From positions 1 through 64,000 of the forward strand of contig NZ_VLIY01000003.1 of NCBI RefSeq assembly GCF_007489285.1: DNA of 64,000 nucleotides, in the 5' to 3' direction. Shown here in pieces: positions 5,042 through 12,575 of this stretch. The notes under the pieces were generated by a model, which made no database searches, was not told the DNA's origin, and saw nothing but the letters and a program-made list of their open reading frames with translations. Origin of the DNA: Skermania sp. ID1734. GTDB lineage: Bacteria; Actinomycetota; Actinomycetes; Mycobacteriales; Mycobacteriaceae. Within the stretch, counting starts at the first letter, position 1, and each line of letters begins with the position of its first letter. Made by a program: the position numbers and the translations under genes.

Positions 5042-5947
5042 ATGTTCGCCGACCTGAGCCGCGCCACCTCCTTCCTGCGCCCGGTCGGTCCACCCGACCG
5101 CACCGCCGGTGCGCCGCCACTGCCACCACCGCGGACGCTCGCACTCGAATCAGGGGAGACGACGGTCCGCTTCGTCCCAGGCAAGGTGCCGGTCCTGCTG
5201 CTGCACGGCTGGGCACTGACTGCCGATGTCAACTTTTGCCACGTCATCAACGAGATCGCCGCTCGGCACGGCGTGCTCGCCGCCGACGTCCGCGGACACG
5301 GGCGTGGAATTGCGTTGCGTAACAAGCGGTTCGCCCTTGCGGACTGCGCCGACGACGCGGCGGCCATCCTGGACAGCCTTGGTATCGATCGGGTCGTCGT
5401 CTGTGGCTATTCGCTCGGTGGGCCCATCGGTCTCGAATTCGCACGGCGATACCCGTCGCGCGTCGCGGGGCTTGTCTTCGAAGCAACGGCGTTGGCGTTC
5501 GACAGCCCAACGGACAAAATCGCGCGGCCCATCTATCGGCTGTTACGACCGCTGGCCAAACGGCACCGCCGAGTCGGACGCACGTTGCCGCTGCGCTACT
5601 TCAACCATGCGCGACGGAAGAATCCGAACACTGCGGCGCTCTGGCCGTGGCTGCGCGGAGAACTGGTGCAATGCGATCCGGTCACCATTCTCGACGTCAT
5701 CCTGGCCGAGTACGACTTCGACTTCCGTCCGCACGTCGAGGAGATCAACTCGATTCCCGCGGCGGTGGTGATCACGGCTCGCGACCGGGCGGTTCCGTCG
5801 CCCGATCAACGCGAACTGGCGACACGACTCAACGCAAAGGCCATCGAAATCGACCGCGACCACGACGTGTTCCTGACCGATCCCGCGGTTTTCCGGGCTG
5901 CCACGCTCACGGCCATTGACCACGTATTGAGCGTGTCGACCCGGTGA
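5042..5947 (+). CDS. Alpha/beta-fold hydrolase
   Basis: A 301-residue serine hydrolase of the alpha/beta superfamily. The oxyanion-hole motif HGWALT is at ~58, the nucleophile elbow GYSLGG at ~123, an acid in ITARDRAVPSPDQ near 245 and the base in RDHDVFL near 277, so the triad looks complete. The substrate cannot be predicted; lipase/esterase or epoxide-hydrolase-like functions are all possible. It is divergent from the dihydroxyacetone kinase gene with starts only ~15 bases apart, so transcripts may be leaderless. A GC-rich hairpin follows the stop. Confidence 0.85.
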   Translation: MFADLSRATSFLRPVGPPDRTAGAPPLPPPRTLALESGETTVRFVPGKVPVLLLHGWALTADVNFCHVINEIAARHGVLAADVRGHGRGIALRNKRFALADCADDAAAILDSLGIDRVVVCGYSLGGPIGLEFARRYPSRVAGLVFEATALAFDSPTDKIARPIYRLLRPLAKRHRRVGRTLPLRYFNHARRKNPNTAALWPWLRGELVQCDPVTILDVILAEYDFDFRPHVEEINSIPAAVVITARDRAVPSPDQRELATRLNAKAIEIDRDHDVFLTDPAVFRAATLTAIDHVLSVSTR

Positions 5948-6248: not shown

Positions 6249-6716
6249 GTGGCGGTGAACGCGCAAGGATCGACGGTTTTCCAAGTCGAGCGCGACGGGC
6301 TGGATTCGGCAGCGTTCCTGGTCGGCGTGCGTCGTGTCGTCGTCGACACGGCGAAGCTCGATTCGATGGTGTCCGCTGCGGTGGTCCGCCACATCGACTA
6401 CCTGCTCTCCGAACAGGGCGTGGGAATCAGCGACCCGCGAGTCGCCGATCGCGCTGAACAGGTGGAGGCCGGTCTGCGCAACGTCTTCGGCGTCGGCCGC
6501 GGCGCGCCGACCCCGAGCACCGCGCAGTTCAAGCAACTCATCGATCAGGCTCGTCCAGGTCCCGCCCCGGCAGCACCGAGCACCCCTGCGCGGCCCGTGC
6601 AAGCAGACCCGCGTGCAATTCGGTCGGTCCCGCCGAATCGGCCGACAGCCGACGAACAACAACCTCCAGCAGACAAGCGCAAGGGTGCTTTCAATCCGCT
6701 GCGCCGGCGTCGCTGA
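6249..6716 (+). CDS. Conserved hypothetical protein, 155 residues
   Basis: Not recognised. Residues ~1-90 look globular and begin with QGSTVFQVERDGLDSAAF, followed by a predicted helix ending in the acidic RVADRAEQVEAGL. Residues ~100-155 are proline/alanine-rich and end in the very basic NPLRRRR. No signal peptide or membrane segment is seen. The start is GTG at 6249 or 6255, preceded by gaaaggcg. It precedes cheB by ~150 bases on the same strand, so a link with the Che-like module is possible but not shown. Confidence 0.6.
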   Translation: MAVNAQGSTVFQVERDGLDSAAFLVGVRRVVVDTAKLDSMVSAAVVRHIDYLLSEQGVGISDPRVADRAEQVEAGLRNVFGVGRGAPTPSTAQFKQLIDQARPGPAPAAPSTPARPVQADPRAIRSVPPNRPTADEQQPPADKRKGAFNPLRRRR

Positions 6717-6867: not shown

Positions 6868-7875
6868 ATGACGCTCGACACTAAGCGCGAAATCGTCGCG
6901 GTCGGAGCCTCGGCGGGGGGCGTTCAGGCGCTGATCTCGATGGCGGGAATGCTGCCGCGCGATTTTCCGGTAGCTGTAGTTGTTGTCCTTCATTTCTCGG
7001 GCGGCGCCAAGAGTGCGTTGGCTGGGATCCTGGATCGCGCCGGTGCCTTGCGCGCGCGTCCCGCCGAGAACGGCGAGCCGATAGAACCGGGCGTCATCTA
7101 CGTTGCTTCAACGGACCGGCATCTGATCATCGATGATCGCACCGCGTACTTGACCGATGGACCGACCGAGAGCGGTCACCGACCGTCGATCAATGCGCTG
7201 TTTCGATCGGTTGCGCTCGACTATGGTCCGGCCGCGATCGGGCTGCTGCTGTCCGGAGTGCTTGACGACGGCGTTGCCGGACTGGCGGCGATTCGGTCGC
7301 AAGGCGGGGTGACCGCAGTGCAGGATCCGGCCGACTGCATTTTTCCGGCGATGCCGACCAACGCGATTCACGCCGGCGTCGTCGATCATGTGATTCCGCT
7401 CCCCGAACTCGGCGCTGCGCTGAGCAAGCTGGCCGCGGAGCAGGTCGGCCAACGCCAAGCTCAGCCCGACGCCAACTTGGAACTGGAGAACAGAATCGCC
7501 CGCGGAGCGAAGTTTGCCGTCGATTTCGATGCCGACAAGGTCGGTCAGCCGGCCGGCTTCAGTTGTCCCGACTGCGGTGGAACATTGATGACGTTGAGCC
7601 GCGGTAGCTTTCGTTGTCGCATCGGGCATGGCTGGACAGCGGAGGCATTGCTGAAAGCACAGGACGTCGAGGTGGAAAGCGCGCTGTGGGTCGCGCTGCG
7701 CAGCCTCGACGAGAAGGCGAAGCTGTCGGAAACGCTGGCCGACCGCGCCGGCGCGGCGGGAGCATTGGGACAGCGGTATGCGGCGTCGGCGAAGGAGGCG
7801 CGTCACGCCGCGCAAGTCCTGCGCGACCACCTCTCGCAAGTGCACGAACGTCCACCCGAAGCGGTGTCTGAATGA
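6868..7875 (+). CDS. CheB-type protein-glutamate methylesterase with C-terminal zinc-ribbon-like region
   Basis: The catalytic CheB domain (residues ~7-190) has Ser15 in GASAGG, His42 in LHFSGG and Asp134 in LSGVLDDG, a complete triad. There is no N-terminal receiver domain. The C-terminal ~110 residues hold CPDCGG plus FRCRIGHGW, a candidate C2CH metal site, followed by a long helical tail. Such stand-alone CheB proteins accompany CheR-PAS proteins in non-motile actinobacteria, where they are not chemotaxis enzymes. Its stop overlaps the next gene's ATG by 4 bases, so the two are co-translated. Confidence 0.85.
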   Translation: MTLDTKREIVAVGASAGGVQALISMAGMLPRDFPVAVVVVLHFSGGAKSALAGILDRAGALRARPAENGEPIEPGVIYVASTDRHLIIDDRTAYLTDGPTESGHRPSINALFRSVALDYGPAAIGLLLSGVLDDGVAGLAAIRSQGGVTAVQDPADCIFPAMPTNAIHAGVVDHVIPLPELGAALSKLAAEQVGQRQAQPDANLELENRIARGAKFAVDFDADKVGQPAGFSCPDCGGTLMTLSRGSFRCRIGHGWTAEALLKAQDVEVESALWVALRSLDEKAKLSETLADRAGAAGALGQRYAASAKEARHAAQVLRDHLSQVHERPPEAVSE

Positions 7876-8624
7876 GCGGTTTAACGCCGAAGTTGCGATT
7901 CTGGCGCGAAGTCGTCGACGAATCGGTCGTGATTGTGCGGCCGGAGGGACGGCTCGATTCGCAAACCTATCTGCAACTGCGCGATTCCCTGTTGAAAGTC
8001 GGTGTCGACCAACCGCGTGCAGTGCTGGTCGAAGCGGATCGGCTCGACGTGCCCACTGGGTCGGCGTGGTCGGTGCTGACCAGCGCCCGCTGGCAGCTCG
8101 CGCAGTGGCCCGGGGTGCCGCTCGTCGTGTTCGCCTATGACACCGGAATCTTGGAAACATTGCAGCGCAATGGAATTTCTCGCTATGTGCCCTGCCGACC
8201 GACACTGACTACCGCGTTGCAGGCAATCGGGGATCCGGAGACGCGGCAGCGCGCCACCATGGCGTTGGAGCCCGTAGCGCAGAGCAGCGCCATTGCGCGA
8301 CGGTTCATGGCGGAGACGCTGACGAATTGGGGAATGACGTCCTACCTCGACATCGCTGCCGTCGTCGGCACGCACCTCGTCGAGGAAACGCTGGCCAAAT
8401 CTCTGGCACCTACGCTGCGGTTAGAGGCTGCGCGAGACCTGCTGTGGATTGCCGTGAGCGATCTGGATCCGACGTTGCCCACGCGGCACGAAACTCCGCA
8501 TGGTACTGATCAGGTCGCCGGCCACGGGCTGTTGGCGGCGCTGTGTCGCGGCTGGGGGGCGAGCCCGAACGCGCTGGGCGGCAAGGTGGTGTGGACGGTG
8601 CTCGGACCGGAAAACCGTCTGTAG
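7872..8624 (+). CDS. STAS-domain protein with C-terminal ATPase-like region
   Basis: A 250-residue protein. Residues ~1-110 look like a STAS (anti-sigma-factor antagonist) fold, ending in LVVFAYDTGILETLQRNGISRYV. Residues ~135-250 resemble an anti-sigma/serine-kinase HATPase_c fold (LRLEAARDLLWIAVSDL, then GGKVVWTVL), but a clean GHGLG-type ATP lid is not obvious. The ATG overlaps cheB (ATGA) and cheR follows 17 bases on. Partner-switching between CheB/CheR methylation input and a sigma factor is a reasonable inference, not shown by sequence. Confidence 0.65.
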   Translation: MSGLTPKLRFWREVVDESVVIVRPEGRLDSQTYLQLRDSLLKVGVDQPRAVLVEADRLDVPTGSAWSVLTSARWQLAQWPGVPLVVFAYDTGILETLQRNGISRYVPCRPTLTTALQAIGDPETRQRATMALEPVAQSSAIARRFMAETLTNWGMTSYLDIAAVVGTHLVEETLAKSLAPTLRLEAARDLLWIAVSDLDPTLPTRHETPHGTDQVAGHGLLAALCRGWGASPNALGGKVVWTVLGPENRL

Positions 8625-8641
8625 CGAGTATCGTCCGGCAT

Positions 8642-10519
8642 GTGACGAAGCAGACCTTCACGCGGCATGAGGAGCCGGAGTACGCCTTCGAGTCCTTGCT
8701 GCGGTTTTTGCGCGACTCACGCGGGTTCGATTTCACCGGCTACAAGCGGACATCGCTGATGCGGCGTGTCCGCCATCGCATGGACCACCTCCGCATCGAG
8801 ACGTTCGCCGAATACCTCGACTTGCTACAAGCCGATTCCGACGAATTTGCGGCGCTGTTCAACACGATCCTCATCAACGTCACCAGCTTCTTTCGCGATC
8901 CCGATGCTTGGGAGGTGATTCGCGACGAGATAATCCCGGCGCTGCTTGCCCAGCGCAGCCCTACCGACCCGATCCGGGTCTGGAGCGCCGGTTGCGCGTC
9001 CGGGCAGGAGGCGTACACGCTGGCGATGTTGTTCGCCGAGGCGATGGGCACCGACGCGTTTCGACAGCGGGTGAAGGTCTATGCCACCGACGTCGATGAG
9101 CATGCGCTCAGCGAGGCGCGGCAGGCCACCTATGACGCGGCTGCGGTCGAATCGGTGCCGGCGGAGTTATTGAGCAAGTACTTCGACGCGCAGGGTGTTC
9201 GGTATGTATTCCGAAAGGATCTGCGCCGAGCGGTGATTTTCGGGCGCAACGACCTCGTCCAGGACGCACCGATCTCCCGGATCGACCTGCTGGTGTGCCG
9301 CAACACGTTGATGTACTTCAACGCTGAAACGCAGAAACGGGTGCTCGGGCGGCTCCATTTTGCGCTCGCGGCGCACGGCGCATTGTTTCTCGGTCACGCG
9401 GAAATGTTGCTGAGCCACAGCCAGCGGTTCACTCCGCTGAACCTGAAGCACCGAATTTTCCGCAAGGCGATGGGGACGCACGCGCCATTGGAACCTGCAG
9501 ATCCGGTGGAGTACCCGGCCGAGCGTTTCGGTGATCTTCCCGGTCTTGACCCCGTGCGCGAACTCGCCTTTCGCGCCAGCCCGGTGCCGCAGATCGTCAT
9601 CACCGGCGATGACACCGTCGCGATGATCAACCAACAGGCGGAGACGCTTTTCGGCCTGTCGCCCCGAGACATCGGCAGATTACTGCGTGACCTCGAGGTG
9701 TCCTACCGGCCCATCGAATTGCGCACATATCTGGAGCAGGCCAAGGTCGAGCGTCGTAATGCGCGCATTCAAGACGTCGAATGGCAGCGCCCCGGTGCGG
9801 AATCGACCTGGCTGGAAATTCACGTCAACCCGCTGGTAGCCGCCGACAATGGCCTGCTCGGCGTCTCGATCGTGTTTTTCGACGTGAGCGCGACGCGGTC
9901 CTTGCTGGACAAGTTGGTGCAAACCAATCGGCAGCTGGAGTCGGCGTACGAGGAATTGCAGTCCACCAATGAGGAGCTCGAAACGACCAACGAGGAACTG
10001 CAATCCACGGTCGAGGAACTCGAAACCACCAACGAGGAGCTGCAGTCGACCAACGAAGAACTCGAGACCATGAACGAGGAGCTGCAGTCGACCAACGATG
10101 AGCTTCAGACGATCAACGACACCCTGCGGGATCGCACGATCGAACTCGACGAGTCCAAGGAGTTCCTCGACTCGGTCGTCAATTCGGTGCGCATGGGATT
10201 GGTCGTCATCGACCGGGAAATGCGGGTCGTCGTGTGGAACCGCGGCTGCGAAGAACTCTGGGGCGTCCGCAGCGACGAGGCCGAGGGGAATTCGTTGAGC
10301 CGGCTGGATATCGGCCTTCCGCTCACCGAGCTTCGCCCAATGCTGGGCAATGCGTTCGTCGACCCGTCCTTCCAGGGCAGCGTGACGCTGTCGGCCATCA
10401 ACCGGCGTGGGCGGCACACCGAAATTCGTGTCCTGTGCACGCCGTTCAAGACAGGGAGCGGGTGGGTGAAAGGCGCACTGCTGCTGATGGAGGCGGGAGG
10501 CACCCCTAGCGGTCAGTGA
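8642..10519 (+). CDS. CheR methyltransferase fused to coiled coil and PAS domains
   Basis: The S-adenosylmethionine-dependent CheR domain spans residues ~15-265: TSFFRDPDAWE, WSAGCASGQEAYTLAM (SAM binding) and DLLVCRNTLMYF are diagnostic. A PAS-like segment (~295-430) follows, then a striking coiled coil built on EELQSTNEELETTN (~437-490), then a second PAS-like domain (~505-620). GTG at 8642 is chosen because the CheR fold begins directly after it; upstream in-frame codons overlap the STAS gene. No methyl-accepting receptor is nearby, so the substrate is unknown. The same CheR-coil-PAS architecture occurs in hybrid CheB/CheR sensor proteins; here CheB is a separate gene. Confidence 0.85.
   Translation: MTKQTFTRHEEPEYAFESLLRFLRDSRGFDFTGYKRTSLMRRVRHRMDHLRIETFAEYLDLLQADSDEFAALFNTILINVTSFFRDPDAWEVIRDEIIPALLAQRSPTDPIRVWSAGCASGQEAYTLAMLFAEAMGTDAFRQRVKVYATDVDEHALSEARQATYDAAAVESVPAELLSKYFDAQGVRYVFRKDLRRAVIFGRNDLVQDAPISRIDLLVCRNTLMYFNAETQKRVLGRLHFALAAHGALFLGHAEMLLSHSQRFTPLNLKHRIFRKAMGTHAPLEPADPVEYPAERFGDLPGLDPVRELAFRASPVPQIVITGDDTVAMINQQAETLFGLSPRDIGRLLRDLEVSYRPIELRTYLEQAKVERRNARIQDVEWQRPGAESTWLEIHVNPLVAADNGLLGVSIVFFDVSATRSLLDKLVQTNRQLESAYEELQSTNEELETTNEELQSTVEELETTNEELQSTNEELETMNEELQSTNDELQTINDTLRDRTIELDESKEFLDSVVNSVRMGLVVIDREMRVVVWNRGCEELWGVRSDEAEGNSLSRLDIGLPLTELRPMLGNAFVDPSFQGSVTLSAINRRGRHTEIRVLCTPFKTGSGWVKGALLLMEAGGTPSGQ
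9950..10111 (+). repeat. Coiled-coil coding repeat inside cheR
   Basis: About eight near-identical 21-base units encode EELQSTN / EELETTN heptads without a break. It is conserved at protein level in CheB/CheR-PAS hybrids, where it acts as a signalling linker; at DNA level the units are similar enough to allow slippage. Confidence 0.8.
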
Positions 10520-10528
10520 GGGCTTTGG

Positions 10529-10885
10529 TCAATCGTGTGAGTGTTGATGGGTTGCCCCAATGGAGTGCAACAGTTGGTGAACTGTGTTGTCGGCGAGTCG
10601 GTATCGAACGATTTTGCCGTCGCGCTGCGCGGCCACCCAGCCTTGATGCCGCAACAGTCGCAAAGCGTGCGACACCGACGACGTCGACATGTGCAGCGCC
10701 GCGGCCAAATCCGTGACACTGATACTCGGCGCGTAGTGCAAGCACAGCAGCAGCCGCAACCGATTGACGTCAGACAGCAACTCGAAGCGGTCCGCCCAGG
10801 CACTGATTCCGGGGATTTCCAAGGCCGCGGCCGCCAGCGCTGAATCGGTCGGGTTCAGCGGTGCGGGCTCCGACGGCGAGGACAT
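10529..10885 (-). CDS. ArsR/SmtB-family regulator, probable Ni/Co sensor
   Basis: A 118-residue winged-helix repressor: RFELLSDVNRLRLLLCLHY, then the recognition helix MSTSSVSHALRLLRHQGWV and wing RDGKIVRYRL. The last helix, DNTVHQLLHSIGATHQHSHD, supplies Asp and several His in the alpha-5 position used by NmtR for Ni(II)/Co(II), pointing to nickel or cobalt sensing. It lies 5 bases downstream of the nickel permease gene, almost certainly in one operon. It converges on cheR with a 9-base gap. An ATG at 10885 gives the expected short N-terminal arm. Confidence 0.85.
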   Translation of the reverse strand: MSSPSEPAPLNPTDSALAAAALEIPGISAWADRFELLSDVNRLRLLLCLHYAPSISVTDLAAALHMSTSSVSHALRLLRHQGWVAAQRDGKIVRYRLADNTVHQLLHSIGATHQHSHD

Positions 10886-10890
10886 AGTGT

Positions 10891-12015
10891 CTATTCTCCG
10901 CCCAGGTCGCTCGCCGTCAGCTCGGCCGACCACCGCCGTTCCACGCCGGCGTACTTCCAGAGCGCGACAGCCACCAGCCAGGTCGTAATGAACAGGCCGA
11001 CGATGATGAATCCCATTGCCGACAGGTCCAGCCCGCCGACGGCGCCCAGTACTCCGTCGGTGATATCGAGCTTGTTGGCGACGATCGAAATGATTTCCTG
11101 AACACCGATCAACAAGGCGACCGCAACGGACAGGCCGGTAATGATCAGGTTGTAGTAAATCTTTCGCACCGGCTGGGCGAAAGCCCATCCATAGGCAAAA
11201 TTCATCAATGATCCGTCGAGTGAATCGAAAAGCGACATTCCCGCGCTGAAAAGAATCGGCAATACCAGAATCGAGTACCACGGCAGGCCGGTCACGGCCG
11301 CACCGCCGGCGATTACCAGCAGGCTCACCTCGGTGACCGTGTCGAAACCCATTCCGAAGAGCAGGCCCACCGGATACATATGCCACGGCTTGGTCACCAT
11401 TGCGACCACCGGACCGAGCAGGCGGTTGAGCGCACCCCGTTCGGAGAGCGCTTGTTCGAGGCGGCTCTCGTCGTATTCGCCCCGGCGCAGAGTGGCGAGC
11501 ACCCGGTAAATGCCGATCAGCGACACCAGGTTCACAACGCCGATGAGGATGAGGAAGCTGCCGGAGACGGTCGTGCCGAACAGGCCGGTCCAGCGCTGCA
11601 GCGCCGAGGAGTTGTCGTCGAGGCTGCGGGCGAGTTGGCGCACCCCTGCGGCCAGCAACGCGACCAACGCGAAGACGATGGTCGAATGGCCAAGAGAGAA
11701 CCAAAATCCTACCGACATAGGCTTTTTGGATTCGGCTACCAATTTGCGGGTGGTGTTGTCGATCGCGGCGATGTGGTCGACGTCGAACGCGTGCCGCATG
11801 CCCAGTGTGTACGCCGTGACACCGAGGCCGACGCCGAAGACGCCGCCCTGAATCGCAAAATTCCCGGGCACCACCAGCATCAGCAACACGATCCAGCCGG
11901 CCAGATGCAGGGCCAGGACCGTCGTTGCCATTCCCGCGAGGCTGCGCCGCTGTGCGCCGTCGAGCCCGTGCCAGGAAACCGCGAGTCTGCGCAGTGTTGT
12001 CATTTGGCTGCTCAC
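10891..12015 (-). CDS. nicT: NiCoT-family nickel/cobalt permease
   Basis: An integral-membrane importer of Ni2+/Co2+ with about eight hydrophobic segments. The family signature RHAFDVDHIAAIDN lies in the second segment, and GFWFSLGHSTIVF, LFGMGFDTVTEV and LPILFSAGMSLFDSLDG are the other conserved blocks. GTG 12015 is preceded by cgggggt; ATG 12003, four codons later, is the alternative. Placed beside a hydrogenase locus, it most likely supplies nickel for the active site. Regulation by the co-transcribed ArsR protein is likely, with a candidate operator at 12070-12083. Confidence 0.88.
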   Translation of the reverse strand: MSSQMTTLRRLAVSWHGLDGAQRRSLAGMATTVLALHLAGWIVLLMLVVPGNFAIQGGVFGVGLGVTAYTLGMRHAFDVDHIAAIDNTTRKLVAESKKPMSVGFWFSLGHSTIVFALVALLAAGVRQLARSLDDNSSALQRWTGLFGTTVSGSFLILIGVVNLVSLIGIYRVLATLRRGEYDESRLEQALSERGALNRLLGPVVAMVTKPWHMYPVGLLFGMGFDTVTEVSLLVIAGGAAVTGLPWYSILVLPILFSAGMSLFDSLDGSLMNFAYGWAFAQPVRKIYYNLIITGLSVAVALLIGVQEIISIVANKLDITDGVLGAVGGLDLSAMGFIIVGLFITTWLVAVALWKYAGVERRWSAELTASDLGGE

Positions 12016-12069
12016 GCTGCAAACCCCCGAGGTTGACGCGTCGGCACGCTGGTAAATCCATCGTACGTC

Positions 12070-12083
12070 TGCACAACTGTTCA
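12070..12083. promoter_or_regulatory. Candidate ArsR-type operator upstream of nicT
   Basis: On the minus strand TGAACA-GT-TGTGCA is an imperfect inverted repeat (one mismatch from TGAACA/TGTTCA) centred ~60 bases upstream of the nicT start. This is the type of 6-2-6 core bound by SmtB/ArsR repressors. Confidence 0.35.
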
Positions 12084-12332
12084 ACTGAAGAAGCATTTTC
12101 TCGCGATAATGAAGCGGACAAATCGGGAGGAAATGTCGTGCTCCGTTCGCATTTCTTACGAATCAGTTTCGCCCTATATCGGGTCGATCATTTCCGTCGT
12201 ATGGTGAGTTTTAGGCCCCGGAGGCCGGGTACTCGCCGTTGCATGCGGCCGAGCTTCGCTCCGGTTATCTGACGGCCATCGCGATCTTCGGTTCGCCCAT
12301 CCTCTGAGGCGTGGTGGGAGGAGGCAACGCCG
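12084..12332. other. Divergent promoter region between nicT and the hydrogenase operon
   Basis: No gene is supported. The left half is less GC-rich (gaagaagcattttctcgcg, gccctatatcggg) and probably holds promoters for both directions. A GC-rich motif ggccccggaggccggg lies near 12214. A strong ribosome site, gggaggagg, sits ~10 bases before the hypC start. No DosR-type box was recognised by eye. Confidence 0.5.
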
Positions 12333-12575
12333 ATGTGCCTGTCCGTTCCGCGGGAGGTTGTGGCCATCGACGCGGATAGACCTGGGCTCGCCCAGGTTTC
12401 GGTCGGCACCCAGCGTCGGTCGGTCAACGTCGGACTCCTCGACGCCGCGCCGAACGTCGGTGACTGGGTGCTCGTACACCTCGGTTTCGCCCTTTCCACG
12501 ATCGATGCCGCCGAAGCGCACTCGCTGTTGGCGACCTTGCACGAGATCGGCCCGCAGGAGGGAGGCCGCCCGTGA
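12333..12575 (+). CDS. HypC/HupF-family hydrogenase maturation chaperone (first copy)
   Basis: An 80-residue protein beginning MCLSVPREV, the HypC signature in which Cys2 carries the Fe(CN)2CO group during transfer from HypD to the large-subunit precursor. GDWVLVHLGFALSTIDAAEA is the conserved second half. A strong gggaggagg ribosome site precedes it. It heads the structural operon, while a second HypC lies in the maturation operon at 22.6-22.9 kb. One copy may be the dedicated large-subunit chaperone (HybG/HupF-like) and the other the HypD partner; this is an inference. Confidence 0.85.
   Translation: MCLSVPREVVAIDADRPGLAQVSVGTQRRSVNVGLLDAAPNVGDWVLVHLGFALSTIDAAEAHSLLATLHEIGPQEGGRP

Follow-up and report, generated by a model that had tools for sequence, protein, structure and literature searches.

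A CheB-STAS-CheR gene trio as a candidate self-methylating PAS sensor in an actinobacterium with no detected chemoreceptors

The actinobacterium Skermania sp. ID1734 carries three linked genes encoding a CheB methylesterase, a STAS-domain protein, and a CheR methyltransferase fused to PAS domains. Here, we analyze this trio in a window of 64,000 nucleotides (contig NZ_VLIY01000003.1, positions 1 to 64,000). We propose that the trio is probably a self-methylating PAS sensor that is reset by CheB, inferring its methylation, the reversal by CheB, dimerization, and the output. An earlier note, made from the letters of the sequence, had suggested the STAS protein or a distant sensor as the methylated substrate. 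The best answer appears to be a third candidate, namely the coiled coil of the CheR protein itself. The earlier interpretation is partly supported.

Results

The CheR protein has an unusual array of sites resembling those that are methylated in chemoreceptors. Using the pattern [EQ][EQ]..[AST][AST], we find six sites (residues 470, 477, 484, 491, 498, and 512), all of them in the coiled coil, and none in CheB or in the STAS protein. The first five occupy five consecutive heptads and the sixth lies two heptads on, the place between them (505) failing by a single Met. Neither the count of six nor the 7-residue spacing was attained in any of 20,000 shuffled sequences, whether or not the core positions were held fixed. 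The same pattern finds four places in Escherichia coli Tar (294, 301, 308, and 490), whose second residues (295, 302, 309, and 491) are its four major methylation sites. For Tsr, methylation helix I is reported to hold three of the four major sites (297, 304, and 311), and two minor ones are described besides (PMC1079850).

Tandem runs of three or more such sites are confined to CheR proteins in the DNA that we surveyed. At least three sites at 7-residue spacing occur in 107 of 18,614 open segments (2.0 Mb), a set that is enriched because this DNA was gathered around CheR-related genes. A CheR domain is contained in 106 of the 107, and the remaining one is a fragment of a fused CheB-CheR gene with a broken frame in its assembly; no other type of protein is among them. 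A search of the Skermania genome with the coil returned, apart from the coil itself, a single weak match (E 0.5).

The coil is also the most conserved part of the protein. Relatives were collected by a scan of named genomes with a CheR alignment, seeded with two CheR peptides and not with the coil, and the best 80 of at least 533 confirmed relatives were used. In pairwise comparisons of the window CheR with 81 sequences from these 80 named loci, pairs that are not phylogenetically independent, the coil has 2.8% amino acid differences while 34% of its codons are synonymously changed. The CheR domain has the same proportion of synonymously changed codons (34%) and 24% amino acid differences; the two PAS domains differ at 19% (PAS 1) and 43% (PAS 2) of amino acids. 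A tandem run of at least three sites is present in 77 of the 81 CheR sequences. Among 28 diverse proteins, which were picked for having the coil, identity is 0.88 in the coil, 0.67 in the CheR domain, and about 0.53 in the PAS domains.

Conservation of the coil extends to its surface. In the same 28 proteins, the exposed heptad positions b and c are conserved to 0.94 and 0.95, and the core position d to 0.96. Across residues 474 to 516, position f varies only to Ala or to a gap, as the consensus permits. In one genus of fused proteins, position f changes from Ser/Thr to Ala, giving EELQAS and EELQAT, which are nearer to the receptor consensus. Surface positions ought to vary in a coil that served for dimerization only. 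On these comparisons, the coil is under strong purifying selection.

No receptor for conventional chemotaxis was detected. The genome (5.12 Mb, completeness 100) has a single CheR and, genome-wide, no match to the methyl-accepting chemotaxis protein (MCP) family PF00015 or to CheW (PF01584), each of which is found in 7 of 14 control genomes. There is no match to flagellin either (positive in 4 of 14 controls); other motility genes were not searched. The earlier description of a module without chemoreceptors was made for the window and is true of the whole genome, and the flagellin result supports the description of the lineage as nonmotile.

We find that the coil type of CheR is associated with genomes that lack MCPs. 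Our sample comprised 201 genomes and the 77 listed CheR matches with E < 1e-18. Coil-type CheRs (n = 28) occur 21 times in MCP-less genomes and 7 times in MCP-bearing ones, compared with 5 and 44 times for CheRs that have no coil (n = 49; Fisher P = 1e-8, relatedness uncorrected). Coil-type proteins thus make up 21 of the 26 CheR matches in MCP-less relatives. Weaker CheR matches, mostly stretches of about 50 residues, were left out of this count, in which one genome (G133) was scored as MCP-bearing on a single weak match (5.5e-4) and the 349-residue CheR of another (G177) as having no coil.

In some relatives, the parts of the trio are joined in one chain. One MCP-less genome (G043) encodes a protein of 1505 residues (L107:3664-8181, minus strand) that contains CheB, CheR, an EE-heptad coil, three PAS domains, GGDEF, and EAL. 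Such a fusion would place writer, eraser, sites, and output in a single polypeptide. Three relatives from the same genus have coil-bearing frames of 1514 to 1787 residues. An EE-heptad coil is also present in 7 of 10 plasmid-borne CheR regions, picked from 40 listed of 647 records. Nonomuraea has a run of four sites, and Caballeronia, Spirosoma, Sphingobium, Sinorhizobium, Rhizobium, and Mesorhizobium have runs of two; a run of two is absent from the plasmid-borne CheRs of Deinococcus, Phaeobacter, and Azospirillum.

The trio itself is a compact and conserved unit. All three genes that the earlier note had reported were found where it placed them, on the plus strand (Table 1), and their close linkage was confirmed. 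The CheB and STAS genes overlap by ATGA (7872-7875), and the likelier start of CheR, to judge from its relatives, is the GTG at 8642, 17 nt past the STAS stop; an alternative GTG at 8543 would overlap the STAS gene. The order and strand of CheB, STAS, and CheR seen in the window are kept in 67 of the 80 named loci. A further 6 of the 80 have all three genes in other arrangements, 2 have STAS and CheR, and 5 have CheR only; some of the loci in these last two groups sit on short contigs. By title, 71 of the 80 are Mycobacterium or Mycolicibacterium. The other nine are Gordonia, Rhodococcus, Rhodococcoides, Amycolatopsis (two), Prauserella, Saccharothrix, Kibdelosporangium, and a Pseudonocardiales assembly. 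Further relatives also have rearranged trios, and coil-type CheR with CheB is also found where there is no STAS gene. Receptors elsewhere in the genome, or poor conservation of the trio, would have spoken against the module as first described; because there is no MCP or CheW match and the trio is kept in most named loci, neither is the case. The observation itself holds, more strongly than the note had put it.

Table 1. Features of the trio in the window (coordinates are window positions).
Feature	Position	Strand	Evidence
Receiver-less CheB methylesterase	6868..7875	+	PF01339 1.5e-53; alignment to 1chd/1a2o
C2CH zinc-ribbon-like motif CPDC..CRIGH in the CheB tail, residues 233-254	7564..7629	+	In 21/32 CheB rows of fetched loci
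SpoIIAA-like STAS domain fused to SpoIIAB-like (GHKL) domain	7872..8624	+	PF01740 6e-5; model; structure matches of both halves
Altered ATP N-box of the STAS protein (Glu 172, Lys 176)	8373..8399	+	Comparison with 71 named relatives
CheR-PAS-coil-PAS protein	8642..10519 (frame open from 8543)	+	Pfam; start inferred from relatives
CheR methyltransferase domain; FFR, ATD, and CRN motifs kept	8687..9451	+	PF01739 2.3e-54; alignments to 5ftw, 5xly, 1af7
PAS 1	9566..9874	+	PF00989 4.6e-13 at residues 342-444; strands in model
Coiled-coil heptads with six EExx[AST][AST] sites, candidate self-substrate	9950..10093	+	Pattern, conservation, helix in model
PAS 2, approximate limits, fast-evolving	10175..10477	+	Second PAS stretch; PAS-like strands in model; 43% amino acid differences

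The CheR protein matches PF01739, PF03705, and PAS families, the last with two stretches. Pfam and the alignments to 5ftw, 5xly, and 1af7 agree that its CheR domain is present with the motifs of the S-adenosylmethionine site. In a model predicted with 23 sequences, a single continuous helix of 100 residues joins the two PAS domains, with a predicted local distance difference test (pLDDT) score of 82 to 95 across this block. The linker that follows the CheR domain, and parts of that domain, are of low confidence. We also considered a role in defense, which was rejected: PADLOC gave 14 matches for the CheR protein, all weak, of which 13 lie on or around the coil and one on the methyltransferase domain.

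Residues 10 to 185 of CheB match PF01339. As this is the only family above its cut-off, the Pfam scan bears out the earlier statement that CheB has no receiver. Residues S15, H42, and D134 align with active-site residues of 1a2o/1chd, which we take to be the catalytic triad. The C2CH-like tail is present as described, but it cannot be called uncommon: it recurs in 21 of the 32 CheB rows and so marks this type of CheB rather than this genome. Its standing as a special addition was rejected on these counts.

The STAS protein matches PF01740 weakly, barely above the family cut-off, and its predicted model is of high quality (mean pLDDT 90). Residues 1 to 120 resemble SpoIIAA/RsfB (8ih8_B; Z 16.5, root mean square deviation (rmsd) 2.5, 117 aligned residues), and residues 124 to 247 resemble SpoIIAB/RsbW (1th8_A; Z 14.9, rmsd 3.3, 121 aligned). 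The label "STAS-ATPase" given to it earlier is correct as to fold, but Asn172 and His176 of the ATP N-box are gone from the window copy, the frame of which stays open. Both residues occur in 70 of 71 named relatives, the remaining one having a gap there; the Asn is also lost in two other relatives, from one genus, that have no CheR match. In a profile alignment, the DSSG of SpoIIAA lies opposite STAS residues 62 to 65. The position that we take to be the phosphorylated serine, which fits the DSSG/DASG pair of chains, aligns with residue 63; it is Gly in the window copy, and 6 of the 72 aligned sequences have Ser there. Given the loss of the N-box Asn and the lack of conservation at the phospho-serine position, it is doubtful that this copy takes part in classic partner switching, and it does not look like a working kinase. 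The genome has five matches to SpoIIE phosphatase, and partner switching may take place elsewhere in it.

Several further genes lie near the trio or its homologs. Upstream of CheB, an open reading frame of 155 amino acids (6249-6716) has no Pfam or NCBIfam match. Adjoining the trio on the other side (10529-12575) is a hydrogenase-maturation neighborhood with a helix-turn-helix regulator, a NicO nickel transporter, and HypC. On contig C53 of the same genome, a second, short CheB-like gene lies next to a PAS-ANTAR antiterminator gene (L071:3881-4489, minus strand, and 5125-5805, plus strand). Some named relatives have a second CheB and a GAF-ANTAR-like gene downstream of the trio, and an ANTAR homolog is found within 4 kb in 23 of the 80 named loci. 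Five relatives encode members of one family of small proteins, next to either CheR or the ANTAR gene (L073:6201-6614, L074:11197-11598, L075:10828-11214, L101:10928-11353, and L102:4202-4705), with no Pfam match in the three members scanned (L073, L074, and L101).

Discussion

What the sequences show directly is that the genes are conserved, which domains they encode, that MCP and CheW matches are lacking, that the coil has sites with the pattern and 7-residue spacing of Tar, and that the coil is extremely constrained. We propose the following mechanism for the trio. The CheR domain would be joined by its low-confidence linker to a rod formed by PAS, coiled coil, and PAS. It would methylate glutamates in the tandem EExx[ST][ST] heptads of this same rod, either in cis or across a dimer, a step modeled on the action of CheR on methylation helix I of chemoreceptors. 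CheB would strip the methyl groups from the rod. The level of methylation could then set the gain of PAS signaling along the rod and so provide adaptation that needs no MCP. In mycobacteria, the output is probably the neighboring SpoIIAA-SpoIIAB fusion, acting as a regulated anti-sigma factor or antagonist; in other lineages, it may be a fused GGDEF-EAL or a nearby GAF-ANTAR antiterminator.

A number of observations weigh against this mechanism. The CheR model is modest overall (mean pLDDT 75, predicted template modeling score 0.35). The window CheR has GQE, with Gln where the CheRs of Salmonella and Bacillus have Glu; GQE is also found in Pseudomonas aeruginosa CheR1, the structure of which has been solved. 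EExx[ST] heptads would also suit a plain coiled coil, and a search of Protein Data Bank sequences with the coil returned ordinary coiled coils, with no MCP among the 40 matches, a result that excludes nothing. Among the 81 named CheR sequences, the longest run is two sites in three proteins and there is no run in a 59-residue fragment, and the plasmid-borne proteins of other phyla show two-site runs only. Five MCPs of relatives (L066, L067, L068, L069, and L070) have 5 to 7 sites each, of which the first three or four lie at multiples of 7 from one another (e.g., 266, 280, 301, and 329), and their longest run is 1 in four and 2 in one. We therefore rejected the idea that every MCP is marked by tandem runs; on present sequences, five consecutive sites characterize the CheR coil, and Tar comes near with its three.

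The association with MCP-less genomes also has its exceptions, and shared ancestry bears on it as it does on the pairwise comparisons, the two-by-two counts not being phylogenetically independent. Five CheR matches in MCP-less genomes have no in-frame coil. One of these runs off the end of its contig, one has a coil in another frame, and one is on a 12-kb contig, its counterpart in a relative having an MCP about 4 kb away; the second CheR of G028 and one of G085 are true exceptions. Finally, the role of the STAS protein as the output is deduced from linkage, and the case for it is weak as its ATP box is altered.

The most probable alternative is that the coil serves only as a dimerization and signal-transmitting helix between the PAS domains, while the methyl groups from CheR go to another protein, for example a response regulator or a sensor kinase. 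CheR-type enzymes can modify proteins other than MCPs, according to two reports (PMC8546571 and PMC4574943), and PAS-helix-PAS sensors are among the structure matches of the CheR model, just as the coil alone matches ordinary coiled coils. We nevertheless regard this alternative as unlikely. The surface of the coil is conserved like its core while synonymous sites vary freely, the conserved residues fit the methyl-acceptor consensus, and the genome has no second coil-bearing protein beyond the weak match mentioned above. Methylation and demethylation of the STAS protein, with partner switching as the earlier note had it, would agree with the tight gene linkage in most named loci and with the SpoIIAA and SpoIIAB folds, and the SpoIIE phosphatases could complete such a switch. 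It is improbable given that the STAS protein has no consensus site, that its phospho-serine position and N-box Asn are altered as described, and that coil-type CheR also exists where there is no STAS neighbor.

Decay would be another explanation, with the trio as a remnant of a lost chemotaxis system. The altered ATP box of the STAS protein, in the window and in the two relatives without a CheR match, is what such a history might leave behind. The frames are open, however, the catalytic residues align, and the trio is conserved across several genera, with a coil under strong purifying selection. On the conservation of trio and coil, we rejected this explanation, which we consider highly improbable. 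We thus favor self-methylation of the CheR coil, reversed by CheB.

In bacteria that have no chemoreceptors, CheR and CheB genes have no obvious substrate. If the stalk of the CheR protein is that substrate, this puzzle would be solved for a large family, and in a form that can be tested with a single purified protein. The chances seem to us about even that CheR-PAS-coil proteins represent a second class of methyl-accepting receptor, in which the enzyme is fused to its own methylation helix. This class would extend at least to Actinomycetota, Pseudomonadota, and Bacteroidota, and would provide chemoreceptor-style adaptation without chemoreceptors, coupled to interchangeable outputs (anti-sigma factors, antiterminators, cyclic di-GMP enzymes, and kinases). 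Were the stalk the substrate, receptor methylation, a standard model of biological adaptation, would be extended to bacteria that do not swim. Among the papers listed by phrase searches of the open-access literature, none has self-methylation of CheR-PAS coils as the subject of its title or of the beginning of its abstract; an earlier report may exist outside that scope.

Comparison with known systems

Conventional chemotactic adaptation by CheR, CheB, and MCPs uses the same enzymes as the trio, and methylation helix I of Tar has the same pattern and 7-residue spacing. The trio differs in that there is no MCP or CheW match, CheB has no receiver, and the site-bearing helix is on CheR itself. 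In Salmonella, CheR is reported to act on a nonreceptor, PhoP, chiefly on an arginine (PMC8546571).

The SpoIIAA/SpoIIAB and RsfB/UsfX pairs have the two folds that are found in the STAS protein. Here, by contrast, they form a single chain, with an ATP box that is altered in the window copy and no conservation at the phospho-serine position. The CheB/CheR-PAS hybrids of Pseudomonadota and Bacteroidota resemble the trio in having, according to their annotation, CheB next to, or fused to, CheR, followed by an EE-heptad coil. They differ in their shorter runs of sites, their longer chains, and other neighbors, among them response regulators and a histidine kinase.

RsbM of Bacillus cereus is a CheR-like enzyme. 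It is reported to methylate the signaling helix of the hybrid kinase RsbK, whereby sigma-B is repressed via RsbY, RsbV, and RsbW, and it is described as an orphan that has no cognate methylesterase (PMC4574943). The logic is that proposed for the trio, with which this system shares a methyltransferase with no chemoreceptor partner, a sensor helix, and a SpoIIAA/SpoIIAB-type switch. Its target is a separate histidine kinase, whereas in the trio the writer and the target-like helix are in one chain; the trio has no kinase domain above the cut-off among its listed Pfam rows. RsbM also has no paired methylesterase, whereas CheB is linked here, and the SpoIIAA and SpoIIAB parts are fused.

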